Assembly (NCBI RefSeq): GCF_019075875.1
Contig: NZ_JAHOOZ010000001.1
Coordinates: forward strand, 5,770,001 to 5,834,000
Direction: 5' to 3'
From: Novosphingobium sp. G106
GTDB lineage: Bacteria > Pseudomonadota > Alphaproteobacteria > Sphingomonadales > Sphingomonadaceae
Length of the DNA: 64,000 bases
Part shown: in pieces, positions 9,049 through 16,636 of the stretch
Layout: the number at the start of each line of letters is the position of its first letter
Position numbering within the stretch: position 1 is the first letter of the stretch
Translations under genes and position numbers: made by a program
The notes under the pieces: generated by a model
Seen by the model: the letters and a program-made list of their open reading frames with translations, nothing else
Database searches by the model: none
Told to the model about the DNA's origin: nothing

Positions 9049-9600
9049 ATGCCTTCAATCCGTCTTACCCTTCTCGCCGGCGCCATTGCCATTGCAACGG
9101 TCAGCGGCGCGGCCATTGCCGCCAATCCGATGGTCGGGGGCGCCGCCATGTACCCGACGAAGACGATCGTCGACAATGCGGTCAACTCCAAGGATCACAC
9201 GACCCTCGTCGCCGCAGTCAAAGCCGCGGACCTCGTCGGTACGCTGTCAGGGCCGGGACCCTTCACCGTCTTCGCTCCGACCAATGCAGCCTTCGCCAAG
9301 CTCCCGGCTGGCACGGTGGATACTTTGGTCAAGCCCGAGAACAAGGCGATGCTGACCGGCATTCTGACGTATCACGTGGTTCCCGGCCGGATCACCGCGC
9401 AAATGATCGCCGCGAACGCGCGTGCTCATCACGGGACGGCGACCTACGCTACTGTTCAAGGTGAGAACCTGACCTTCTCGCGCTCCGGCACCGGCTGGAT
9501 GATCATGGACGGCAAGGGCCATCACGGCATGATCACGATTGCCAACGTCATGCAATCGAACGGCGTAATACTCGTCATCGATACCGTGATGATGCCGTAA
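9049..9600 (+). CDS. secreted fasciclin (FAS1) domain protein
   Basis: This 183-residue protein has a signal peptide (about 1-23, ending SGAAIAA) and one FAS1 domain (about 40-180) with the FTVFAPTNAAFAKLP box and the later YHVVPGR box. FAS1 proteins are exported adhesion or scaffold proteins. ATG 9049 follows AGGAGAACGAAG. It is convergent with nrsF across a strong hairpin. Fasciclin genes beside sigF/nrsF may form part of the same stress cluster, but no SigF promoter was found here. Confidence 0.9.
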   Translation: MPSIRLTLLAGAIAIATVSGAAIAANPMVGGAAMYPTKTIVDNAVNSKDHTTLVAAVKAADLVGTLSGPGPFTVFAPTNAAFAKLPAGTVDTLVKPENKAMLTGILTYHVVPGRITAQMIAANARAHHGTATYATVQGENLTFSRSGTGWMIMDGKGHHGMITIANVMQSNGVILVIDTVMMP

Positions 9601-9672: not shown

Positions 9673-10314
9673 TCACCAGCGTAGGAAGCGAGGGCCGACG
9701 ATAGCGCCAATTGCAGCTGCAAGCAGGATCCCCAGCGAATACCAGGTGAGCACGAACAGGGCCGATACCTCAGGGCAATGGAGGCAGTAGAGCGTTGCGG
9801 CCCAGGCTCCTGCGGCGAGCCCGGCCGCGGCGCCGGTGGCGCGCAAGCGGGTCGGCGCGAAGCGTCGGAACGACCACAAGAGACCCACGAATATCGGCAC
9901 GGCAAGCATGAGGACGAGCCAGGGGCACTTGGTCCAGGAGTGGCCGAGCCACATGGCGAGCCAATCGGCCCGCGGGACATGCGCCATTTCGGCCATAGCT
10001 ATGCCCGCGAGCAAAATGAAGGGAACGGCGACCGGCCAGAAGGCGCGAAGGGCGACGGGTTCGGGCCGGGCGAGACGCGCCACCGCCGCGATCGCGCTCG
10101 CTCCCAGGGAGATCGTGTAGGCCCACTTCATCCAGAAGTTGATGCCGCGCATCGCCAGGCCAAGATCGCTACGGAAACCCAGCACTGCAGCAACCAGCAG
10201 GGCGGCAACGCCGCCGCCGATCAGCAGGCCGAGCAACAGCCGGCGCCCCACGGCGCGCCGCGGCACCGGTTTCAGATCCTTCGACAGTTGTTCGATCAGG
10301 GAGTCGGTATTCAT
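9673..10314 (-). CDS. nrsF: NrsF-type anti-sigma factor (DUF1109)
   Basis: This 213-residue protein has about six membrane helices starting near residue 28. It matches the DUF1109/NrsF family, inner-membrane anti-sigma factors that hold SigF and release it under metal or oxidant stress. Cysteines in TKCPWLV and in YCLHCPE correspond to the conserved sensing cysteines of the family. The start ATG (10314) overlaps the sigF stop by four bases (ATGA), so the pair is translationally coupled. Confidence 0.9.
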   Translation of the reverse strand: MNTDSLIEQLSKDLKPVPRRAVGRRLLLGLLIGGGVAALLVAAVLGFRSDLGLAMRGINFWMKWAYTISLGASAIAAVARLARPEPVALRAFWPVAVPFILLAGIAMAEMAHVPRADWLAMWLGHSWTKCPWLVLMLAVPIFVGLLWSFRRFAPTRLRATGAAAGLAAGAWAATLYCLHCPEVSALFVLTWYSLGILLAAAIGAIVGPRFLRW

Positions 10315-10847
10315 GGACGCTCCCCTCGAATGCGCGCTGCCAGAGATTTGAGACCTCGGTGAACCGAGACTTTGACGTCGGATTCGCCGATCCCAGCGCG
10401 GCTTGCGGCCTCGGAAGTGCTCTGCCCCATTATCCGCGTCCGGTGGATCGCATCGGCCTGCTTTTCCGGGAGCGTCGCGAGCAGGCGATCGACGTCGATC
10501 GACGCGCTCACCTCGTCCTCGAACCCTTCGAAAAATAAGAGGTCCTCTACCACTTCGATGGGGCAGGTCTGCTTTGTCCGGCGAAAGTGATCGATCATCC
10601 TGTAGCGTGCGATCGAAAACAGCCATGCCAGGAAAGGCCGATCCCGGTCGAAGCTCATGCGGCGGGTATGAACGGCGATCAGCGTTTCCTGCACGAGATC
10701 CTCTATGACGTCACTGTCGGCGACGCGCCGCCGGTAAAAGGCGCGCAGCAAGGAAACCAGCGCCCGCAGCAATGCCGCATGCGAAGCAGCATTACCGTCG
10801 AGGCCCTCGGTCATCCAGGTCTTGAGCTGATCTTCGCCCGGCTGCAT
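10311..10847 (-). CDS. sigF: ECF RNA polymerase sigma factor SigF
   Basis: This 178-residue ECF sigma factor has region 2 at about 40-95 (DLVQETLIAVHTRR ... WLFSIARYRMIDHFRR) and region 4 at about 120-172 (LPEKQADAIHRTRIMGQSTSEAASRAG). The downstream partner nrsF and the promoter pattern upstream identify it as the SigF group. ATG 10847 has AGGAG eight bases upstream. It is likely autoregulated: a GTAACC-N16-CGAATA site lies at 10864-10891. Confidence 0.92.
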   Translation of the reverse strand: MQPGEDQLKTWMTEGLDGNAASHAALLRALVSLLRAFYRRRVADSDVIEDLVQETLIAVHTRRMSFDRDRPFLAWLFSIARYRMIDHFRRTKQTCPIEVVEDLLFFEGFEDEVSASIDVDRLLATLPEKQADAIHRTRIMGQSTSEAASRAGIGESDVKVSVHRGLKSLAARIRGERP

Positions 10848-10863
10848 TCGCGCTCCTGGAGTC

Positions 10864-10891
10864 TATTCGCAGGGAACCGGCGTATGGTTAC
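10864..10891 (-). promoter_or_regulatory. SigF-type promoter of sigF-nrsF
   Basis: On the minus strand, GTAACC (10891-10886) and CGAATA (10869-10864) are separated by exactly 16 bases, and the -10 is 16 bases before the sigF start. The same layout occurs at 10976, 15046 and 15107. Confidence 0.7.
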
Positions 10892-10975
10892 AACGCACTG
10901 CGAATTTTTGCGCGCCGGTTTGTTCAATGCATCCTTCAGGGCGATGGCGGCCACACTGAAAATTTTCGCGGACCT

Positions 10976-11003
10976 GTAACCGGTCGCCGGTTTCGCACGA
11001 ACC
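10976..11003 (+). promoter_or_regulatory. SigF-type promoter of the DUF1223 operon
   Basis: GTAACC (10976-10981), 16 bases, CGAACC (10998-11003). It is divergent from the sigF promoter and 48 bases before the GTG of the DUF1223 gene. The -10 differs from CGAATA in its last two bases. Confidence 0.65.
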
Positions 11004-11051
11004 CTTTGTAGCACTGGCCAATCCGGCCGGTCGTTCGAAGGGAAGCAGCTC

Positions 11052-11789
11052 GTGTGGCCGCGCAGACCTCTAGTCATCGCCATGCTGGCCGGCTCGATGC
11101 TTGCGGCATTGAGCGGCTGCGGCAAGTCCGAAGCTTCGCCGGTGCCCCAGAGCGCTGCCGGTGGTTCGGCGCGCAGTCCCGTCGTCGTCGAGCTATTCCA
11201 GAGCCAGGGCTGTTCGTCCTGCCCTCCCGCCAATGCCGATCTCAATGCCATCGCCGATCGCCGCGACGTGCTCGCGCTGTCCTTCGCCGTAACCTACTGG
11301 GACCGTCTCGGCTGGAAGGACACTTTCGCTTCGCCGCTCTTCACGGTCCGTCAGCAGGACTATGCCCGCGCGGGTCGAGGCGAGGTCGCGACGCCGGAAT
11401 TCATCGTCAATGGCGTGTCGGCCGTCCTCGGCAGCAATCGCCCGGCGCTCGATGCCGCGATTGCACGGTCCGCCACCGCAGCCCCGGGTCCCGAAATTTC
11501 GGCCGCTGCGGCCAGCGTCCGTGTCGAAGCGGCTGCAGGCGGAATGCCGGCGACGGTCTGGCTTGTTCGCTACGATCCGCGAACGCGGCAAGTGCCTATC
11601 CGGGCAGGCGAGAACAGTGGCCGCACGCTGCCCCACCGCAACATCGTCCGCGAGCTTGTGCGCCTGGGCGAATGGAAGGGCTCGGCGGTCACGTACCCCC
11701 TCGTTCCGGCCCGCGAGACAGGACTGGTTACCGCCGTACTCATTCAGCGCGGCAATGGCGGCCCGATCGTCGCTGCCCGCAAAGTCTGA
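11052..11789 (+). CDS. DUF1223 thioredoxin-like lipoprotein
   Basis: This 245-residue protein has a lipoprotein signal (LAALSGC, Cys about 23) and a DUF1223 domain beginning VVVELFQSQGCSSCPPAN, with a CSSC motif as in thioredoxin-fold proteins, and later AVTYWDRLGWKDTF. It probably acts in the periplasm, anchored to a membrane. The GTG at 11052 is taken as the start, with an in-frame ATG at 11082 as alternative. It is the first gene after a SigF promoter and is followed by the Met-rich peptide, cytochrome b and molybdoenzyme genes on the same strand, so it probably serves oxidative repair. Confidence 0.88.
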   Translation: MWPRRPLVIAMLAGSMLAALSGCGKSEASPVPQSAAGGSARSPVVVELFQSQGCSSCPPANADLNAIADRRDVLALSFAVTYWDRLGWKDTFASPLFTVRQQDYARAGRGEVATPEFIVNGVSAVLGSNRPALDAAIARSATAAPGPEISAAAASVRVEAAAGGMPATVWLVRYDPRTRQVPIRAGENSGRTLPHRNIVRELVRLGEWKGSAVTYPLVPARETGLVTAVLIQRGNGGPIVAARKV

Positions 11790-11855
11790 CAGTTCTTCAG
11801 CCGCAGGCGTCGCGGCTTCCCTCAATCAATGACGCCCATTCAAGGAGTTAATCCC

Positions 11856-12149
11856 ATGCGTATTTTGACTGTACTCGCCCTTTCGGCGATGCCGCTTACG
11901 GCTGCAGCGCCTGCCTTCGCCCAGGATGCGATGATGAAGGACAGTATGCACTCGGGCGCGATGGCGCACATGTCGGCTGCCGATACCCGCCGGATGAACA
12001 GCTGCAAGGCGATGTCGCACGACGCCATGATGCGCAGCGCCTCGTGCCGCCGCATGGCGCAGATGCATCCCGAGATGATGCATCACGACAGCATGATGAA
12101 GCACGACGGCACCATGGCCCACGACAACATGATGAAGTCGGGTCACTGA
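11856..12149 (+). CDS. methionine-rich periplasmic peptide (MrpX-like)
   Basis: The precursor has 97 residues with a clean signal peptide (1-23, ending PAFAQ). The mature part of about 74 residues contains 18 methionines and 9 histidines, many as MM pairs, plus two cysteines in similar SC-containing contexts. ATG 11856 follows AAGGAG. In Azospira the SigF/NrsF-controlled MrpX peptide is a sacrificial methionine sink for hypochlorite that the YedY1 reductase regenerates. Composition, export and the neighbouring yedZY-like genes suggest the same role. Metal binding is an alternative use of the Met/His side chains. Confidence 0.75.
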   Translation: MRILTVLALSAMPLTAAAPAFAQDAMMKDSMHSGAMAHMSAADTRRMNSCKAMSHDAMMRSASCRRMAQMHPEMMHHDSMMKHDGTMAHDNMMKSGH

Positions 12150-12212
12150 GCCCTGACCGGGAGGGCGCTCGAATGGGTCCTCCCGGCCATCTTTCAATCG
12201 GGAAGGTGAGCC

Positions 12213-13031
12213 ATGCACGATCCTCAACAGCGCAGCTTCGGAGGCGGCGACCTGATCTATCGGCAGCGGCGCCCGGTGCGCCTCTGGCACTGGATCAATG
12301 CCCTGTCAGTCTTCGTCATGCTGATGAGCGGCCTGATGATCTTTAACGCGCATCCGCAGCTCTATTGGGGCCAGTACGGGGCTAACGCCGAGACGCCCTG
12401 GCTGGCGATCGGTGCCAAGGACGATGCGGGCTTCTTGAAACTGGGGCCGGTGACCATTCCCACGACCGGAGTGCTCGGCTTGTCGGGCGGGGTCGAGCGG
12501 GCGTTTCCGCCGCTCGTCACCATCCCCTCGAGCTACGACCTGGCAGGCGCCCGGCAATGGCATTTCGCCTTCGCCTGGCTGCTCGTGGTCCCTGGCCTGC
12601 TGTTCTGGCTTTGGGGCCTTATCACGAAGCATGTGCAGCGCGACCTCGCGCCGACACCGGCCGAACTCCATCCGCGCCATCTGTGGCAGGATATCAAGGA
12701 TCATGCTCGGCTACGCTTCCATACCGGCGAGGCGGCACGACGCTACAACGTGCTCCAGAAGCTCAGCTACATCGGAGTGCTTTTCGGCCTGCTGCCTGCA
12801 ATGGTGCTGACCGGCCTCACCATGTCGCCCGGCATGGATGCCGCCTGGCCCTGGCTGCTCGACCTTTTCGGCGGCCGTCAGTCCGCACGCTCGATCCATT
12901 TCATCTGCGCCGCGCTGTTGGTGCTCTTCATTGTCGTCCACCTGCTGATGGTCGTGCTTGCCGGCCCTCTCAATGAGCTGCGATCGATCATCACCGGTTG
13001 GTACCGCCTACCCAAGGAGAAGGCTCGATGA
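12213..13031 (+). CDS. membrane cytochrome b (YedZ1-like electron donor)
   Basis: This 272-residue cytochrome b561/hydrogenase-type membrane protein has four main helices. Candidate haem-ligand histidines are in RLWHWINAL (about 25), QWHFAFAW (about 117), SIHFICA (about 230) and VVHLLMV (about 243). It lies between the Met-rich peptide and the molybdoenzyme, whose ATG overlaps its stop by four bases. It should pass quinol electrons across the membrane to the molybdopterin reductase. It is of the cytochrome b561 type and not the classical MsrQ/YedZ type. Confidence 0.87.
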   Translation: MHDPQQRSFGGGDLIYRQRRPVRLWHWINALSVFVMLMSGLMIFNAHPQLYWGQYGANAETPWLAIGAKDDAGFLKLGPVTIPTTGVLGLSGGVERAFPPLVTIPSSYDLAGARQWHFAFAWLLVVPGLLFWLWGLITKHVQRDLAPTPAELHPRHLWQDIKDHARLRFHTGEAARRYNVLQKLSYIGVLFGLLPAMVLTGLTMSPGMDAAWPWLLDLFGGRQSARSIHFICAALLVLFIVVHLLMVVLAGPLNELRSIITGWYRLPKEKAR

Positions 13032-13804
13032 CGATCGTAACGCGCCCCGTTCTGACACGTCGGCGCCTGATCGGTTCGATCGGCGCCGGTGCGGGCAGCT
13101 TGCTGCTTTCAGGTTGCGACAGGATAGCCGCTTCGCCCACGGTGCAAAACGTCCTGGGAGCAGGCGAAGGACTGACATTTCGTGCACAGCGCCTGCTGTC
13201 CGACCGCACCGCGCTGGCCCGCGAGTTCTCGGCGCTCGACATGTCGCCGGTGTTCCGTACCAACGGCAACACTGCCCCGACCGCCAACGGATACGAGCGC
13301 CATGCCGCGGAGAAATTCGCAAACTGGCGGCTTGTCGTGGACGGGCTGGTGCGCCGGCCCCAGTCGCTCTCCATGGCGCAGATCCGGACAATGCCCGCGC
13401 GCACGCAGATCACCCGTCACGACTGCGTCGAAGGGTGGAGCGCGATCGGCAAGTGGACCGGACTGCCATTGAAATTGGTCCTCAACGCCGCCGGCGTGCT
13501 GCCCTCGGCACGCTACGTCGTGTTCCACTGCGCCGACGATTTCGATGGCGATCCTTACTACGAGAGCGTCGACCTGATCGACGCCTATCATCCCCAGACG
13601 ATCCTCGCCTGGGGCATGAACGACGAACTCCTGAGCGTTGGCCACGGCGCGCCGCTACGGCTGCGCGTCGAGCGCCAGCTGGGTTACAAGCAGGCCAAAT
13701 ATGTGATGCGCGTCAGCCTCGTCGCCTCGATGGCCGAGATCGGTGCGGGCAAGGGTGGCTACTGGGAGGATTCGGCCGGGTACCAGTGGTACGCCGGAAT
13801 CTAG
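13028..13804 (+). CDS. periplasmic molybdopterin oxidoreductase (YedY1/MsrP-like)
   Basis: This 258-residue protein of the sulfite oxidase/YedY fold has an N-terminal Tat-like signal (TRRRLIGSIG) with a possible lipobox ending LLLSGC. The presumed molybdenum-ligating cysteine is in TRHDCVEGWSAIGKW (about 137). The start ATG overlaps the cytochrome stop (ATGA), so the two are coupled. By context it would reduce methionine sulfoxide in periplasmic proteins or in the Met-rich peptide encoded upstream. The stop overlaps the convergent DUF1993 stop. Confidence 0.88.
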   Translation: MTIVTRPVLTRRRLIGSIGAGAGSLLLSGCDRIAASPTVQNVLGAGEGLTFRAQRLLSDRTALAREFSALDMSPVFRTNGNTAPTANGYERHAAEKFANWRLVVDGLVRRPQSLSMAQIRTMPARTQITRHDCVEGWSAIGKWTGLPLKLVLNAAGVLPSARYVVFHCADDFDGDPYYESVDLIDAYHPQTILAWGMNDELLSVGHGAPLRLRVERQLGYKQAKYVMRVSLVASMAEIGAGKGGYWEDSAGYQWYAGI

Positions 13805-14322
13805 GCCAGCTTGCGAACGCGGCCGTTGAAGTCGCGCTTGCCGATCGCAACGCCCTTCATCCGCAGGATGTCGTAGGCGGTCGCCGCATGGAAATAGAAA
13901 TTGGGCTGTGAGAACGAGAGCAGGAATTCCTCTGCCAGGAAATCCATGTGGTTCTCGCCGAACTGGAAGCGCATGGGCCGGCCGATGAAGCTCTCCATCT
14001 CGTCGCGATCGAGCGCTTCGAGTGCGGCGACAGTCTGGGCAACGCGCTCGCGCAGTCCTGCGAAAGTATCTGGCGGCGTCGTCGCGTCGGGAGAAAACGT
14101 CCCCTTGCGCAAGCCTTCGATCGCGCCGAGCGAATGAACCGCCGTCGACTTCACCTGATAGGCGAAAGGGAGCATGTCCTCCGCGAGTTTCGCCTGGATC
14201 AACGTCTCGGGTTCCAGACCCTTTTCGTTGCAGAAGCTCTCGGCCTTGTCGATGAGCCGTGAGACCGAGCCCAGGATCTGGAGGTAGGAGGGTATCGTCG
14301 CGGCATAGAGCGTGAAGACCAT
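13801..14322 (-). CDS. DUF1993 family protein
   Basis: This 173-residue helical protein belongs to DUF1993, a DinB-like four-helix family. Visible signatures are LAEDMLPFAYQVKSTAVHS and the C-terminal FYFHAATAYDILRMKGVAIGKRDF. No signal peptide is seen and its biochemical function is not known. It starts 24 bases after the end of msrA on the same strand and is probably transcribed with it from the SigF promoter at 15046-15073. Confidence 0.88.
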   Translation of the reverse strand: MVFTLYAATIPSYLQILGSVSRLIDKAESFCNEKGLEPETLIQAKLAEDMLPFAYQVKSTAVHSLGAIEGLRKGTFSPDATTPPDTFAGLRERVAQTVAALEALDRDEMESFIGRPMRFQFGENHMDFLAEEFLLSFSQPNFYFHAATAYDILRMKGVAIGKRDFNGRVRKLA

Positions 14323-14346
14323 CGTTTTTTCCCAGGACAGGCGTGA

Positions 14347-15015
14347 TCAGGATTTCCAGCTGGCCGGGAATAGCTTGTGCAGCGCTTCCACCTTCGGCCG
14401 ATCATTGAACACGATATAAGGGTAGTTCGGATTGCGGGCCATGAAATCCTGATGATAAGACTCGGCGGGATAGAATGCCCGGTTCATCTCGATCCGCGTC
14501 GCGATCGGCCGAGAGAAGGTATGCGCCGCACTGAGCTGGCCGATATAGGCCCGGGCTACGCGCTCCTGCGCAGGTGAGGTGGGAAACAGCGCCGTGCGGT
14601 ATTGAGTGCCTGTATCGGGGCCCTGGCGGTTCACTTGCGTCGGATCCGCCACCACCGAAAAGTAGATGCGCAGCAAATCAGCATAGTTGACCTGCGCCGG
14701 GTCGAATACGACGCGAACCGATTCCGCGTGGCCGGTCGTACCGCTGGAGACCGTCTCGTAGCTTGCGGTCGACGCAGCGCCGCCTGCATAGCCAGACGTC
14801 GCGCTGATCACGCCCTTTACGTGCGAGAACACGCCTTGCACGCCCCAGAAGCAGCCCCCGGCAAAAACGGCGGTTTCGCGGTGGCCGGTCACCGGCTCGG
14901 TCATTGCGGAGGCGGGCGCCTTGACCGCGCTTTCCGCAGCGTTGCCAGCGCCCATGAAAGAAAACGTGGCTACGCTCGCCAGCAGGGCGAGCACGACAGG
15001 TGCGGTACGAAACAT
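14347..15015 (-). CDS. msrA: exported peptide methionine sulfoxide reductase MsrA
   Basis: This 222-residue protein has an N-terminal signal peptide (about 1-27, ending NAAES), then the MsrA catalytic motif GGCFWG (about 54) and GYAGG, HAESVRVVFDP and YPYIVFNDRPKVEAL. It reduces the S-form of methionine sulfoxide and is placed outside the cytoplasm by its signal. It complements the molybdoenzyme encoded nearby. The SigF promoter at 15046-15073 lies 31 bases before its start. Confidence 0.93.
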   Translation of the reverse strand: MFRTAPVVLALLASVATFSFMGAGNAAESAVKAPASAMTEPVTGHRETAVFAGGCFWGVQGVFSHVKGVISATSGYAGGAASTASYETVSSGTTGHAESVRVVFDPAQVNYADLLRIYFSVVADPTQVNRQGPDTGTQYRTALFPTSPAQERVARAYIGQLSAAHTFSRPIATRIEMNRAFYPAESYHQDFMARNPNYPYIVFNDRPKVEALHKLFPASWKS

Positions 15016-15045
15016 GAGAAGCTCCTCGGCTATGCTCTTGCTCGT

Positions 15046-15073
15046 AATACGCGCGGGCGGGGCCGCCGGTTAC
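15046..15073 (-). promoter_or_regulatory. SigF-type promoter of msrA-DUF1993
   Basis: On the minus strand, GTAACC (15073-15068), 16 bases, CGTATT (15051-15046). It is divergent from the doxX promoter only 34 bases away. Confidence 0.68.
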
Positions 15074-15106
15074 ATCGCCGAATGGATTTATCTGCGCGAT
15101 TGGCCT

Positions 15107-15134
15107 GTAACCAATTCACTTTGCCACGCGAATG
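15107..15134 (+). promoter_or_regulatory. SigF-type promoter of doxX
   Basis: GTAACC (15107-15112), 16 bases, CGAATG (15129-15134). The -10 ends seven bases before the first ATG of the DoxX gene, so the transcript would be nearly leaderless. Confidence 0.6.
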
Positions 15135-15141
15135 AGCGGAT

Positions 15142-15672
15142 ATGATGGTCAAACATATCCGGCAGGTTCGAAATATACGCGCGGACGCGTTCTTGGGTCT
15201 GGGCGAGCGCGGATATGCGTGGGCGCAGTTCCCGCTACGCCTCATAGTCGGATATGGCTTCATCGCTCACGGCATTGCCAAATTGGAGCGGGGCCCGGAC
15301 AATTTTGCCCATATCCTCCAAGTGCTTGGGGTTGCCGAACCTCATCTGTTCGCGTGGCTCACCATTCTGGTGGAGGTGCTGGGCGGGATAGCAGTCCTGC
15401 TCGGTGCCTTCGTGCGGATCGCCAGCCTGCCTATGGCGGTCATTCTCATCGTCGCGATGGTTACGGTACATCTGCCCTACGGCTTCTCCTCGATAAAGCT
15501 GTTGGAAGTGACGCCGGCTGGGCCGAAGTTCGGACCGCCCGGCTACGAGACAGACCTGCTCTATCTGGCGGGGCTGTTCGCTCTGGTCACGGGAACGCCG
15601 GGCCCCTGGTCGATCGATGGCCTTCTCGCAGCTCGCCGCCTGGCCGGCTCGGCCGCCGATCCAGCCGGCTGA
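15142..15672 (+). CDS. DoxX family membrane protein
   Basis: This 176-residue protein has about four membrane helices and the DoxX signatures LRLIVGYGFIAHGIAKLERG and EVLGGIAVLLGAFVR. DoxX proteins are integral membrane proteins associated with redox stress systems. Two adjacent ATGs (15142, 15145) are possible starts. Its SigF-type promoter ties it to the oxidative-repair cluster. Confidence 0.88.
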   Translation: MMVKHIRQVRNIRADAFLGLGERGYAWAQFPLRLIVGYGFIAHGIAKLERGPDNFAHILQVLGVAEPHLFAWLTILVEVLGGIAVLLGAFVRIASLPMAVILIVAMVTVHLPYGFSSIKLLEVTPAGPKFGPPGYETDLLYLAGLFALVTGTPGPWSIDGLLAARRLAGSAADPAG

Positions 15673-15685
15673 AAAGCGTCCGCCA

Positions 15686-16223
15686 GTGCTCCCGCATCAT
15701 ATCCGCAGGTCTCGCGTCAGCGACGCCGAATTGTTCCCCGGCATCGAGCATTCTGCTGGGCTCGCATTTCGCGAAATTCCGGCGCTGGCTTGGGTCGCGG
15801 ACGGCGACGACCTGCCGAACTCGTTTCATCGACGCCTTATCCTCGAAGGCATGAGCTGGACGGCGGTGGACGACCTGGACCTGCCGATCGGTTTTCTCAG
15901 CGCCGAAATGTTTTGCGACGATCTCCACATCTGGGAGCTTTCGGTGCACCTGGACTGGCAGCGCGGGGGCGTTGGGCGGCATTTGATCGCCTGCGCTGTC
16001 AAAGACGCGAAAGCGAAAAACCTGGCTTCGATCACGCTGACCACGTTCATCGACGTACCCTGGAACGCGCCTTACTACAGTCGGCTAGGCTTCGAGATGC
16101 TTGACCGACACCGGCTTGCTCCCCGTCTAGCGGACGTGCTTCGACAGGAAGCCCAACGGGGGGTTCGCTCCGGAAACACGCTGCGCCATGCGTCTGCCCC
16201 TTTGCAAGGGGGAGGCCGGGTGA
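15686..16223 (+). pseudogene. GNAT acetyltransferase, frameshifted by one extra G
   Basis: From GTG 15686 the frame encodes a GNAT domain (IRRSRVSDAELFPGIE, ELSVHLDWQRGGVGRHLI, YYSRLGFEML) to about residue 157. It then runs into the next gene because of a G6 run at 16158-16163. Reading five Gs instead restores the usual family ending (GFAPETRCAMRLPL) and a TGA at 16221-16223 that overlaps the next start. As written, the two genes form one open frame. The restored protein would have 178 residues. It starts 14 bases after doxX. Confidence 0.7.
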
Positions 16224-16636
16224 ACATCATAACCTGCCACGGCCTGTCACCGGCCCAGATCGATGAGATCGAAAACAAGCTCTACGCATTCAACAGCGCT
16301 GTGATTGGGCGCGATGACGCTCACTCGATCGGTTTCGTGATGCGCGATGAAACCGGCGCAATGCTCGCGGCAATCGCAGGACATAGCTGGGCCGGGATTG
16401 CGGAGATCAAGCAGTTTTGGGTCGATAGCAAGCATCGCAACCGAGGTTGGGGATGCGCGCTTCTCGGCGCATTCGTCGCCGAAGCGCGCACGAGGAGCGT
16501 GCGCCGCGTCTGGGTCGCCACTTTCGATTTTCAGGCGCCTATGTTTTATGAGGGGGCCGGCTTCGTTCGTGTAGCCGAGCTTGGCGGATGGCCTGAAGAC
16601 CATGCTCACATCATCCTGAGCAAAGAGCTGATCTGA
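16220..16636 (+). CDS. GNAT family N-acetyltransferase
   Basis: This 138-residue GNAT domain protein contains IKQFWVDSKHRNRGWGCALL (the acetyl-CoA loop, about 70-90) and a C-terminal FDFQAPMFYEGAGFVRVAEL. Its substrate is unknown. GTG 16220 is preceded by GGGGGAGG, and the restored stop of the preceding GNAT gene overlaps it (GTGA). It would be read as a domain of a longer fusion if the upstream frameshift were ignored. Confidence 0.75.
   Translation: MNIITCHGLSPAQIDEIENKLYAFNSAVIGRDDAHSIGFVMRDETGAMLAAIAGHSWAGIAEIKQFWVDSKHRNRGWGCALLGAFVAEARTRSVRRVWVATFDFQAPMFYEGAGFVRVAELGGWPEDHAHIILSKELI

Follow-up and report, generated by a model that had tools for sequence, protein, structure and literature searches.

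What does a single sigma factor control when its gene stands beside an exported methionine-rich peptide and two different predicted methionine sulfoxide reductases? The question is raised by a gene cluster at positions 9673 to 15672 of a 64,000-nt stretch of Novosphingobium sp. G106 (contig NZ_JAHOOZ010000001.1, 5,770,001 to 5,834,000; hereafter the window), whose genome (G000) measures 7.2 Mb on five contigs and is 98% complete. Profile searches of the window proteins recovered, in their expected place, all nine genes that the initial annotation had named: those for SigF, NrsF, a DUF1223 protein, the peptide, a cytochrome b, a molybdopterin oxidoreductase, an exported MsrA, a DUF1993 protein and DoxX (Table 1). 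We consider it likely that the cluster is a SigF/NrsF (ECF16) regulon for periplasmic methionine redox defence; from the sequence we infer induction, SigF dependence, methionine oxidation, a repair cycle and export (signals recognized by eye), as well as roles for DUF1993, DoxX and GNAT acetyltransferases in that defence.

This reading starts from the promoters. The search pattern GTAACC-N16-CGAA was adopted from work on Caulobacter (PMC3511200); here and below, statements on published systems concern the accessible parts of the papers cited. The motif tGTAACc-N16-CGAA is described for SigF/ECF16 factors, also before sigF itself (PMC3511200, PMC3420878), and in Bradyrhizobium the ECF16 motif is given with CG(t,a) (PMC3420878). 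Exactly four matches to GTAACC-N16-CGWA occur in the 64 kb, each preceding a cluster gene and together forming two divergent pairs; the matching promoters proposed to join MsrA and DoxX are among them. Shuffled windows contain 0.14 such sites on average and none of the 100 shuffles reached four, and chance promoters were rejected on the strength of these shuffles and of a second copy of the cluster that has the same sites. Upstream of 35 sigF genes, we found GTAACC..CGAA in 10 cases, GTAACC..CGTA in 9, another form of GTAAC..CGAA in 4 and none in the stretch searched in 12. The genome holds 14 exact GTAACC-N16-CGAA sites, 7 of which lie within the window cluster and the second copy; the other seven (L010-L013, L020, L022, L024) were viewed and have no convincing target gene. 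SigF-like matches are also found as identical pairs (C3:3977/C3:290931; C1:4417541/C1:5051134), which suggests repeated elements in the genome.

The second, diverged copy (L031, at C1:773900-778300) has the gene order of the window. Eight of its proteins share 77-94% identity with their counterparts and its GNAT frame 57%, and no match to doxX was found in it. Its four SigF sites are all exact and end 14 nt (sigF), 37 nt (DUF1223), 34 nt (msrA) and 10 nt (GNAT) ahead of the first start codon of the respective frame, and msrA and DUF1993 have been retained together with their site. The ratio of nonsynonymous to synonymous substitution rates (Ka/Ks) between the copies is 0.07-0.16 over six genes (sigF, peptide, cytochrome, molybdoenzyme, DUF1993 and msrA), the peptide standing at 0.116. 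Because the fourth site of the copy precedes acetyltransferase genes, the unit in the window probably runs on past 15672 to about 16636.

Two further observations concern these genes. The acetyltransferase pair forms one open frame in the window (15617-16636) and two overlapping frames behind the SigF site of the copy (12307-13295 of L031), and in a related locus (L106) the order is SigF site, GNAT, MsrB, CcdA. The nrsF gene of the copy (6712-7351 of L031, about 772711-773350 on C1) is broken over two frames while its sigF is intact. The break could be genuine or an artefact of assembly; in the first case the second sigma factor might lack its restraint.

Adjoining sigF and nrsF, the genes for the peptide, cytochrome and molybdoenzyme lie in one apparent operon of the MrpX/YedY1-type layout, which supports the proposal of an Azospira/Brucella-type arrangement under one sigma factor. 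If cut after residue 23 (by eye), the mature peptide has 74 residues with 18 Met, as first described, along with 9 His and 2 Cys. Of 32 candidates in a protein search, 25 matched the peptide, one being the genome's own second copy. Over 26 aligned peptides, conservation averages 0.87 for mature Met and 0.64 for His, and is 0.96 for the two Cys and for His55 and 1.0 for His71. AlphaFold2 predicts a helical core at about residues 41-70 (predicted local distance difference test, pLDDT, 82-83 for the block), in a model that is otherwise poor (predicted template modelling score, pTM, 0.36). The score against the pentapeptide MXKDX model TIGR02953 is 18.9 bits (E=0.0011) for a cut-off of 41, and the peptide therefore looks built like MrpX without being a clean member of the MxKDx family. 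An HdeA-like identity was dropped for want of a PF06411 match in the window peptide. Among distant Met-rich peptides, PF06411 gives 21.3 bits for L143 (cut-off 22) and 11.3 for L162; those upstream of the cytochrome gene in L143, L162, L164, L175 and L176 (Rhodobacteraceae and others) combine a two-Cys frame with an insert rich in Met.

The molybdoenzyme carries a C.E.W motif that is present in all 131 relatives extracted (duplicates included), and its best solved structure is E. coli YedY (1xdq, E 9.2e-14), with CVEGWS and CVEAWS aligned; we take the Cys of CVEGWS to be the Mo ligand. With the MsrP equivalog model NF003767 it scores 95 bits, short of the cut-off of 207. Its cytochrome partner matches PF01292 and DUF4405 only and not the MsrQ/YedZ family, MsrQ being a ferric-reductase-like protein; the two genes adjoin in 41/41 and 88/90 relatives in two samples. 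A third molybdoenzyme-cytochrome pair of the genome (C1:4917839-4918588, L056; 59% identity) is accompanied, over the 19 kb around it, by no peptide, no sigma factor and no SigF-like site.

On the thiol side, the window MsrA (GCFW; N-terminal signal by eye) scores 170.9 bits with TIGR00401, for a cut-off of 108.1. It has a single Cys, as do 25 of the 28 exported MsrA relatives extracted, and would therefore need an outside thiol donor. The best local candidate is the DUF1223 protein, whose CSSC may serve as that donor: the C..C motif at SQGCSSCPPA is there in 19 of 23 extracted relatives, and the four exceptions comprise a short sequence (L118), an apparently wrong frame (L121) and the proteins of Aureimonas and Jiella. 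Its model (mean pLDDT 76, pTM 0.75) begins strand-helix-strand, continues with two short strands of low confidence and helix-strand-strand-helix, and then has a strand-rich second half; the first half presumably fits a thioredoxin fold. On a plasmid of Sphingomonas hankookensis, thioredoxin, CcdA, DUF1223, cytochrome and molybdoenzyme genes follow one another divergently from NrsF-SigF, and CcdA and/or thioredoxin genes are close to Msr genes in L036/L119, L078, L106 and L175. No CcdA/thioredoxin pair was found in the window cluster, and none of the five MsrB matches in the genome has a SigF-like site within about 1.5 kb; the description of the module as complete is thus too strong. A similar thiol relay for a periplasmic methionine sulfoxide reductase was speculated on in Bradyrhizobium (PMC3420878), and in open-licence literature we found no work joining DUF1223 with methionine sulfoxide reductase.

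Taken together, these elements could work as follows. NrsF would sense envelope stress, of a hypochlorite or a copper type, through its conserved cysteines and free SigF, which would fire the four promoters. The exported peptide, presumably abundant, would absorb oxidant (possibly Cu) on its Met residues, and the sulfoxides of the peptide and of other periplasmic proteins would be reduced by two enzymes with separate electron lines, one leading from quinol through cytochrome b to the molybdoenzyme, the other a thiol line that would pass from DUF1223, the putative donor, to the one-Cys MsrA.

Table 1. Genes and SigF-type promoter sites of the cluster, in window coordinates
Feature	Position	Strand	Basis and remarks
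nrsF, anti-sigma factor, 213 aa	9673..10314	-	PF06532, 246 bits; Cys130, Cys177, Cys180 (CLHC pair)
sigF, extracytoplasmic function (ECF) sigma factor (ECF16/SigF type)	10311..10847	-	Sigma70_r2 and r4_2; overlaps nrsF; own SigF-type site
SigF-type site, GTAACC-N16-CGAA, before sigF-nrsF	10866..10891	-	motif match
SigF-type site, GTAACC-N16-CGAA, before DUF1223-peptide-cytochrome-molybdoenzyme	10976..11001	+	motif match; also in second copy (L031)
DUF1223 protein, lipoprotein-like signal (LSGC, by eye), SQGCSSCPPA	11052..11789	+	PF06764; PDB 2axo, 6.3e-29
MrpX-like exported Met-rich peptide, 97 aa	11856..12149	+	C50, H55, C64, H71 conserved; signal by eye
b-type cytochrome, presumed quinol-oxidising partner	12213..13031	+	PF01292; adjoins molybdoenzyme in relatives
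Molybdopterin oxidoreductase, MsrP/YedY fold family	13028..13804	+	PF00174; twin-Arg signal by eye; presumed Mo-ligand Cys133 (HDCVEGWS)
DUF1993 protein	13801..14322	-	PF09351; downstream of msrA, same direction; 89% in second copy
msrA, exported one-Cys MsrA (GCFW)	14347..15015	-	PF01625, TIGR00401; signal by eye
SigF-type site, CGTA variant, before msrA-DUF1993	15048..15073	-	exact CGAA version in second copy
SigF-type site, GTAACC-N16-CGAA, before doxX	15107..15132	+	motif match
doxX, DoxX-family membrane protein	15142..15672	+	PF07681; without counterpart in second copy
Open frame carrying two GNAT acetyltransferase domains	15617..16636	+	probable further member, after doxX; true start uncertain

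Two assignments in Table 1 were compared with narrower models. NrsF has the conserved cysteines (Cys130 and Cys180, plus Cys177) and the adjoining ECF sigma gene of its family, and scores 157 with the NCBIfam NrsF equivalog model, below the cut-off of 300; DoxX scores 68 bits with the HvfX model, below a cut-off of 80. A fasciclin-domain gene at 9049-9597 converges on nrsF and was kept outside the module, having neither a SigF site nor a match in the second copy. A fasciclin match (36%) is also close to MsrB and a molybdoenzyme in a Beijerinckiaceae metagenome-assembled genome (L123).

How often does the combination recur? The molybdoenzyme is found in 161 of 199 genomes of the family (E<=1e-30), the exported type of MsrA in 167 (E<=1e-45) and NrsF in 95 (94 over the cut-off); at E<=1e-50 the molybdoenzyme is found in 15 of 337 genomes of the class, a set that takes in this genome and four others from the family. 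Gene order was compared over 90 molybdoenzyme loci, 80 of them the best of the 311 loci from one contig scan with a single query, which leans to close relatives and has no Azospira record among those 80, and 10 from the class search; 66 loci had 5 kb on both sides, and the other 24 were left out for lack of flank. The form with the peptide is the less common one: a Met-rich frame precedes the cytochrome gene in 10 of the 66. Near these 10 and the other 56, respectively, lie Msr genes in 4 and 2 (p=0.0037), SigF/NrsF in 4 and 2, and DUF1223 in 5 and 4 (p=0.0027). Msr genes without a peptide were scored in L119 and L145, and in L145 tblastn matched a Met-rich peptide. The sample repeats at least one locus (L168 and L196, whose contigs are equally long), and two species are represented by two loci apiece (L116/L134, L122/L155). 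Four components, namely peptide, Mo enzyme, Msr and SigF/NrsF, occur together in Sphingomonas phyllosphaerae (L117), Fuscibacter oryzae (L176) and Aureimonas jatrophae (L145), and Novosphingobium lentum (L116) is another named example of the peptide-containing form. The place given to MsrA in the regulon is supported: a SigF-type site precedes msrA in both copies of the cluster, and msrA adjoins sigF beside molybdoenzyme loci in L117, L118 and L036/L119. Among the 20 better-matching exported-MsrA loci, SigF-like sites precede msrA in L076, L078 and L091 and msrB-msrA in L088 and L092. Such sites also precede DoxX in L100 and L106. Thus periplasmic methionine repair of the Mo and the thiol type recurs, with a Met-rich peptide and the thioredoxin-like DUF1223, behind one kind of sensor, and this gives DUF1223 a testable function.

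Several observations weigh against the regulon as we read it. The msrA site of the window has CGTA and not CGAA. Genome-wide, GTAAC-N16/17-CGAA has 35 matches and the reversed pattern 102; since this looser motif is not enriched, the promoter evidence rests on the positions of the sites. Gene-order comparison, which brought out the recurrence of the peptide with Msr, SigF/NrsF and DUF1223, shows no association of the peptide with DoxX (1/10 vs 0/56, p=0.15), with DUF1993 (1/10 vs 1/56, p=0.28) or with a SigF-like site before the cytochrome gene (2/10 vs 19/56, p=0.48), and all these p-values are optimistic because the loci come from related genomes. By the rule used, 56 of the 66 molybdoenzyme-cytochrome loci are without peptide, which therefore need not be the enzyme's main substrate. 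No SigF-like site precedes msrA in 15 of the 20 exported-MsrA loci, and in the DUF1223 proteins of Aureimonas and Jiella Val replaces the second Cys. Finally, 11 of the 15 top-scoring NrsF loci in the 199 family genomes have bufferin genes near sigF, so that the inducer may not be an oxidant and the peptide may have a copper role.

Elsewhere, copper-binding peptides accompany closely similar sigma factors, which raises the question whether the peptide of the window is an oxidant sink or a copper sink. The sacrificial peptide of the initial annotation is accordingly one of two live readings, its Cys/His core and the bufferin-linked sigma factors backing the other, in which the cluster would serve mainly against copper or another thiophilic metal, the Met/His/Cys peptide chelating periplasmic Cu as bufferins do and the reductases repairing copper-driven Met oxidation. 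Besides the 11 bufferin loci, the top 15 comprise three of the methionine type (this genome, G028 and G011) and one ended by a contig edge (L107). Over 23 SigF loci at >=54% identity, bufferin genes lie within 6.5 kb in 12; L031, L037/L122, L116, L117 and L120 have peptide and molybdoenzyme without bufferin genes, L126 has bufferin genes with a molybdoenzyme and L106 with MsrB. This set was drawn by several routes, so that its proportions cannot be taken as frequencies, the 15 NrsF loci being the fairer sample; L036/L119 and L037/L122 are probable duplicates in it, and the frame scored as Met-rich near L100 looks like chance. In bufferin and methionine-type loci alike, NrsF proteins closely related to that of the window share its three Cys, and the peptide has, besides its 9 His, the conserved C50, C64, H55 and H71. 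The bufferin maturase DUF692 (MNIO) has no match in the window's genome at its 98% completeness. Seven of 12 other genomes are likewise without it (G028, G140, G011 and those of L117, L118, L120 and L176) and it is present in the remaining five (G043, G123, G182, G197 and N. lentum). Eight of the genomes checked have a peptide gene ahead of the molybdoenzyme together with SigF/NrsF in one stretch, and all of these except N. lentum lack DUF692. Also in line with a metal role, Caulobacter SigF responds to heavy metals (PMC3511200) and some bufferin-like clusters include a PF00174 gene (PMC12452194). We nevertheless hold a mainly copper-directed function to be unlikely. The Brucella operon with a Met-rich peptide responds to HOCl and its deletion lowers HOCl survival (PMC8315932), two Msr systems beside the peptide suit oxidation better than metal storage, and Met is on average more conserved than His. 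Moreover, N. lentum, with its peptide module, and G182 and G197, which have Msr genes beside NrsF/SigF, possess DUF692 as well, which indicates that the two systems can coexist and weakens the notion that they exclude each other.

The Mo enzyme and MsrA might instead provide general envelope repair for ordinary periplasmic proteins, with the peptide as a client of minor or redox-signalling importance rather than the sink. E. coli MsrPQ operates with no peptide of this sort, and 56 of the 66 pairs compared above are peptide-free, 19 of them with a SigF-like site within 700 nt upstream. The low Ka/Ks of the peptide and the position of its gene, directly before the cytochrome-molybdoenzyme pair and in the same direction, make this explanation improbable in our view. 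A more speculative and quite doubtful reading is an exchange of SigF targets in the Sphingomonadaceae, whereby one conserved SigF/NrsF type would drive either Cys-rich, copper-binding bufferins or a peptide rich in Met and His along with methionine repair of the Mo and thiol types, the Cys2-His2-Met helical core of the peptide acting at once as copper buffer and as an oxidant sink regenerated by the two reductases; if so, a recyclable sink would stand in for the modified bufferin peptide. That msrA, DUF1993, doxX and GNAT are beside the sigF operon by mere chance is very improbable, since the four matching sites, the retention of msrA-DUF1993 with its site in the second copy and the SigF-like sites before msrA and DoxX elsewhere speak against what the missing second doxX, the lack of association of DoxX and DUF1993 with the peptide and the site-free msrA loci would suggest.

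The core of the methionine-defence regulon favoured here (Met-rich peptide, cytochrome, Mo-type methionine sulfoxide reductase and SigF/NrsF) is already known from Azospira and Brucella. In Azospira suillum PS, SigF/NrsF-MrpX-YedY1 scavenges hypochlorite (PMC5748585, PMC4623255), and the window shares with it the sigma/anti-sigma pair, the Met-rich peptide and the methionine sulfoxide reductase molybdoenzyme with a partner gene. It differs by msrA, DUF1223, DUF1993, doxX and GNAT behind the same promoter type, and by a peptide with a Cys/His core that falls below the MxKDx cut-off. To call the cluster an extended version of the Azospira system is correct as to its kind, although the extension itself is known already, Msr genes having been reported in such settings (PMC4623255, PMC3420878). 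The recurrent membership of DUF1223, the Cys/His core of the peptide, the paralogous copy and the contrast with bufferin loci were not found in the accessible literature that we compared, in which a direct search was made for the first of these only.

In Brucella melitensis, bcrXQP is induced by HOCl, and its deletion cut survival under HOCl and made no difference under H2O2; there, as in the window, an ECF16 sigma gene (BcrS/AbcS) lies beside genes for a Met-rich peptide and MsrQ-like and MsrP-like proteins, with GTAAC..CGAA promoters. The Brucella peptide is termed an MXKDX repeat protein, and the accessible text does not mention msrA, DUF1223 or doxX (PMC8315932). The perchlorate islands of P. 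militaris MP and D. hydrogenophilus LT-1, described in 2015, place exported msrA and msrB with sigF/nrsF/yedYZ/mrpX (PMC4623255); their context is perchlorate reduction. The window's genome has no MsrB with a SigF-like site. With E. coli MsrPQ the window shares a SUOX-fold molybdoenzyme with its Cys, and neither the MsrP score nor the MsrQ partner.

The Caulobacter SigF regulon and the bufferin clusters resemble the window in SigF/NrsF, in the same promoter and in having a YedY-type gene and DoxX as targets (PMC3511200, PMC12452194). According to the bufferin survey, bufferin clusters can include sigma/NrsF genes, and a few bufferin-like ones have a PF00174 gene (PMC12452194); unlike in the window, the Caulobacter targets are mostly DUF2282/DUF692 operons and msrA homologues were unchanged (PMC3511200, PMC12452194). 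Bradyrhizobium japonicum EcfF/OsrA, an ECF16 system described in 2012, controls three genes for peptide methionine sulfoxide reductases, a periplasmic one and two more, together with a periplasmic thioredoxin and a DsbD-like protein (PMC3420878). That regulon spans seven transcription units and, in the accessible text, names neither a Mo enzyme nor a Met-rich peptide; what it has in common with the window is ECF16 control of Msr genes from promoters that allow CG(t,a) (PMC3420878).

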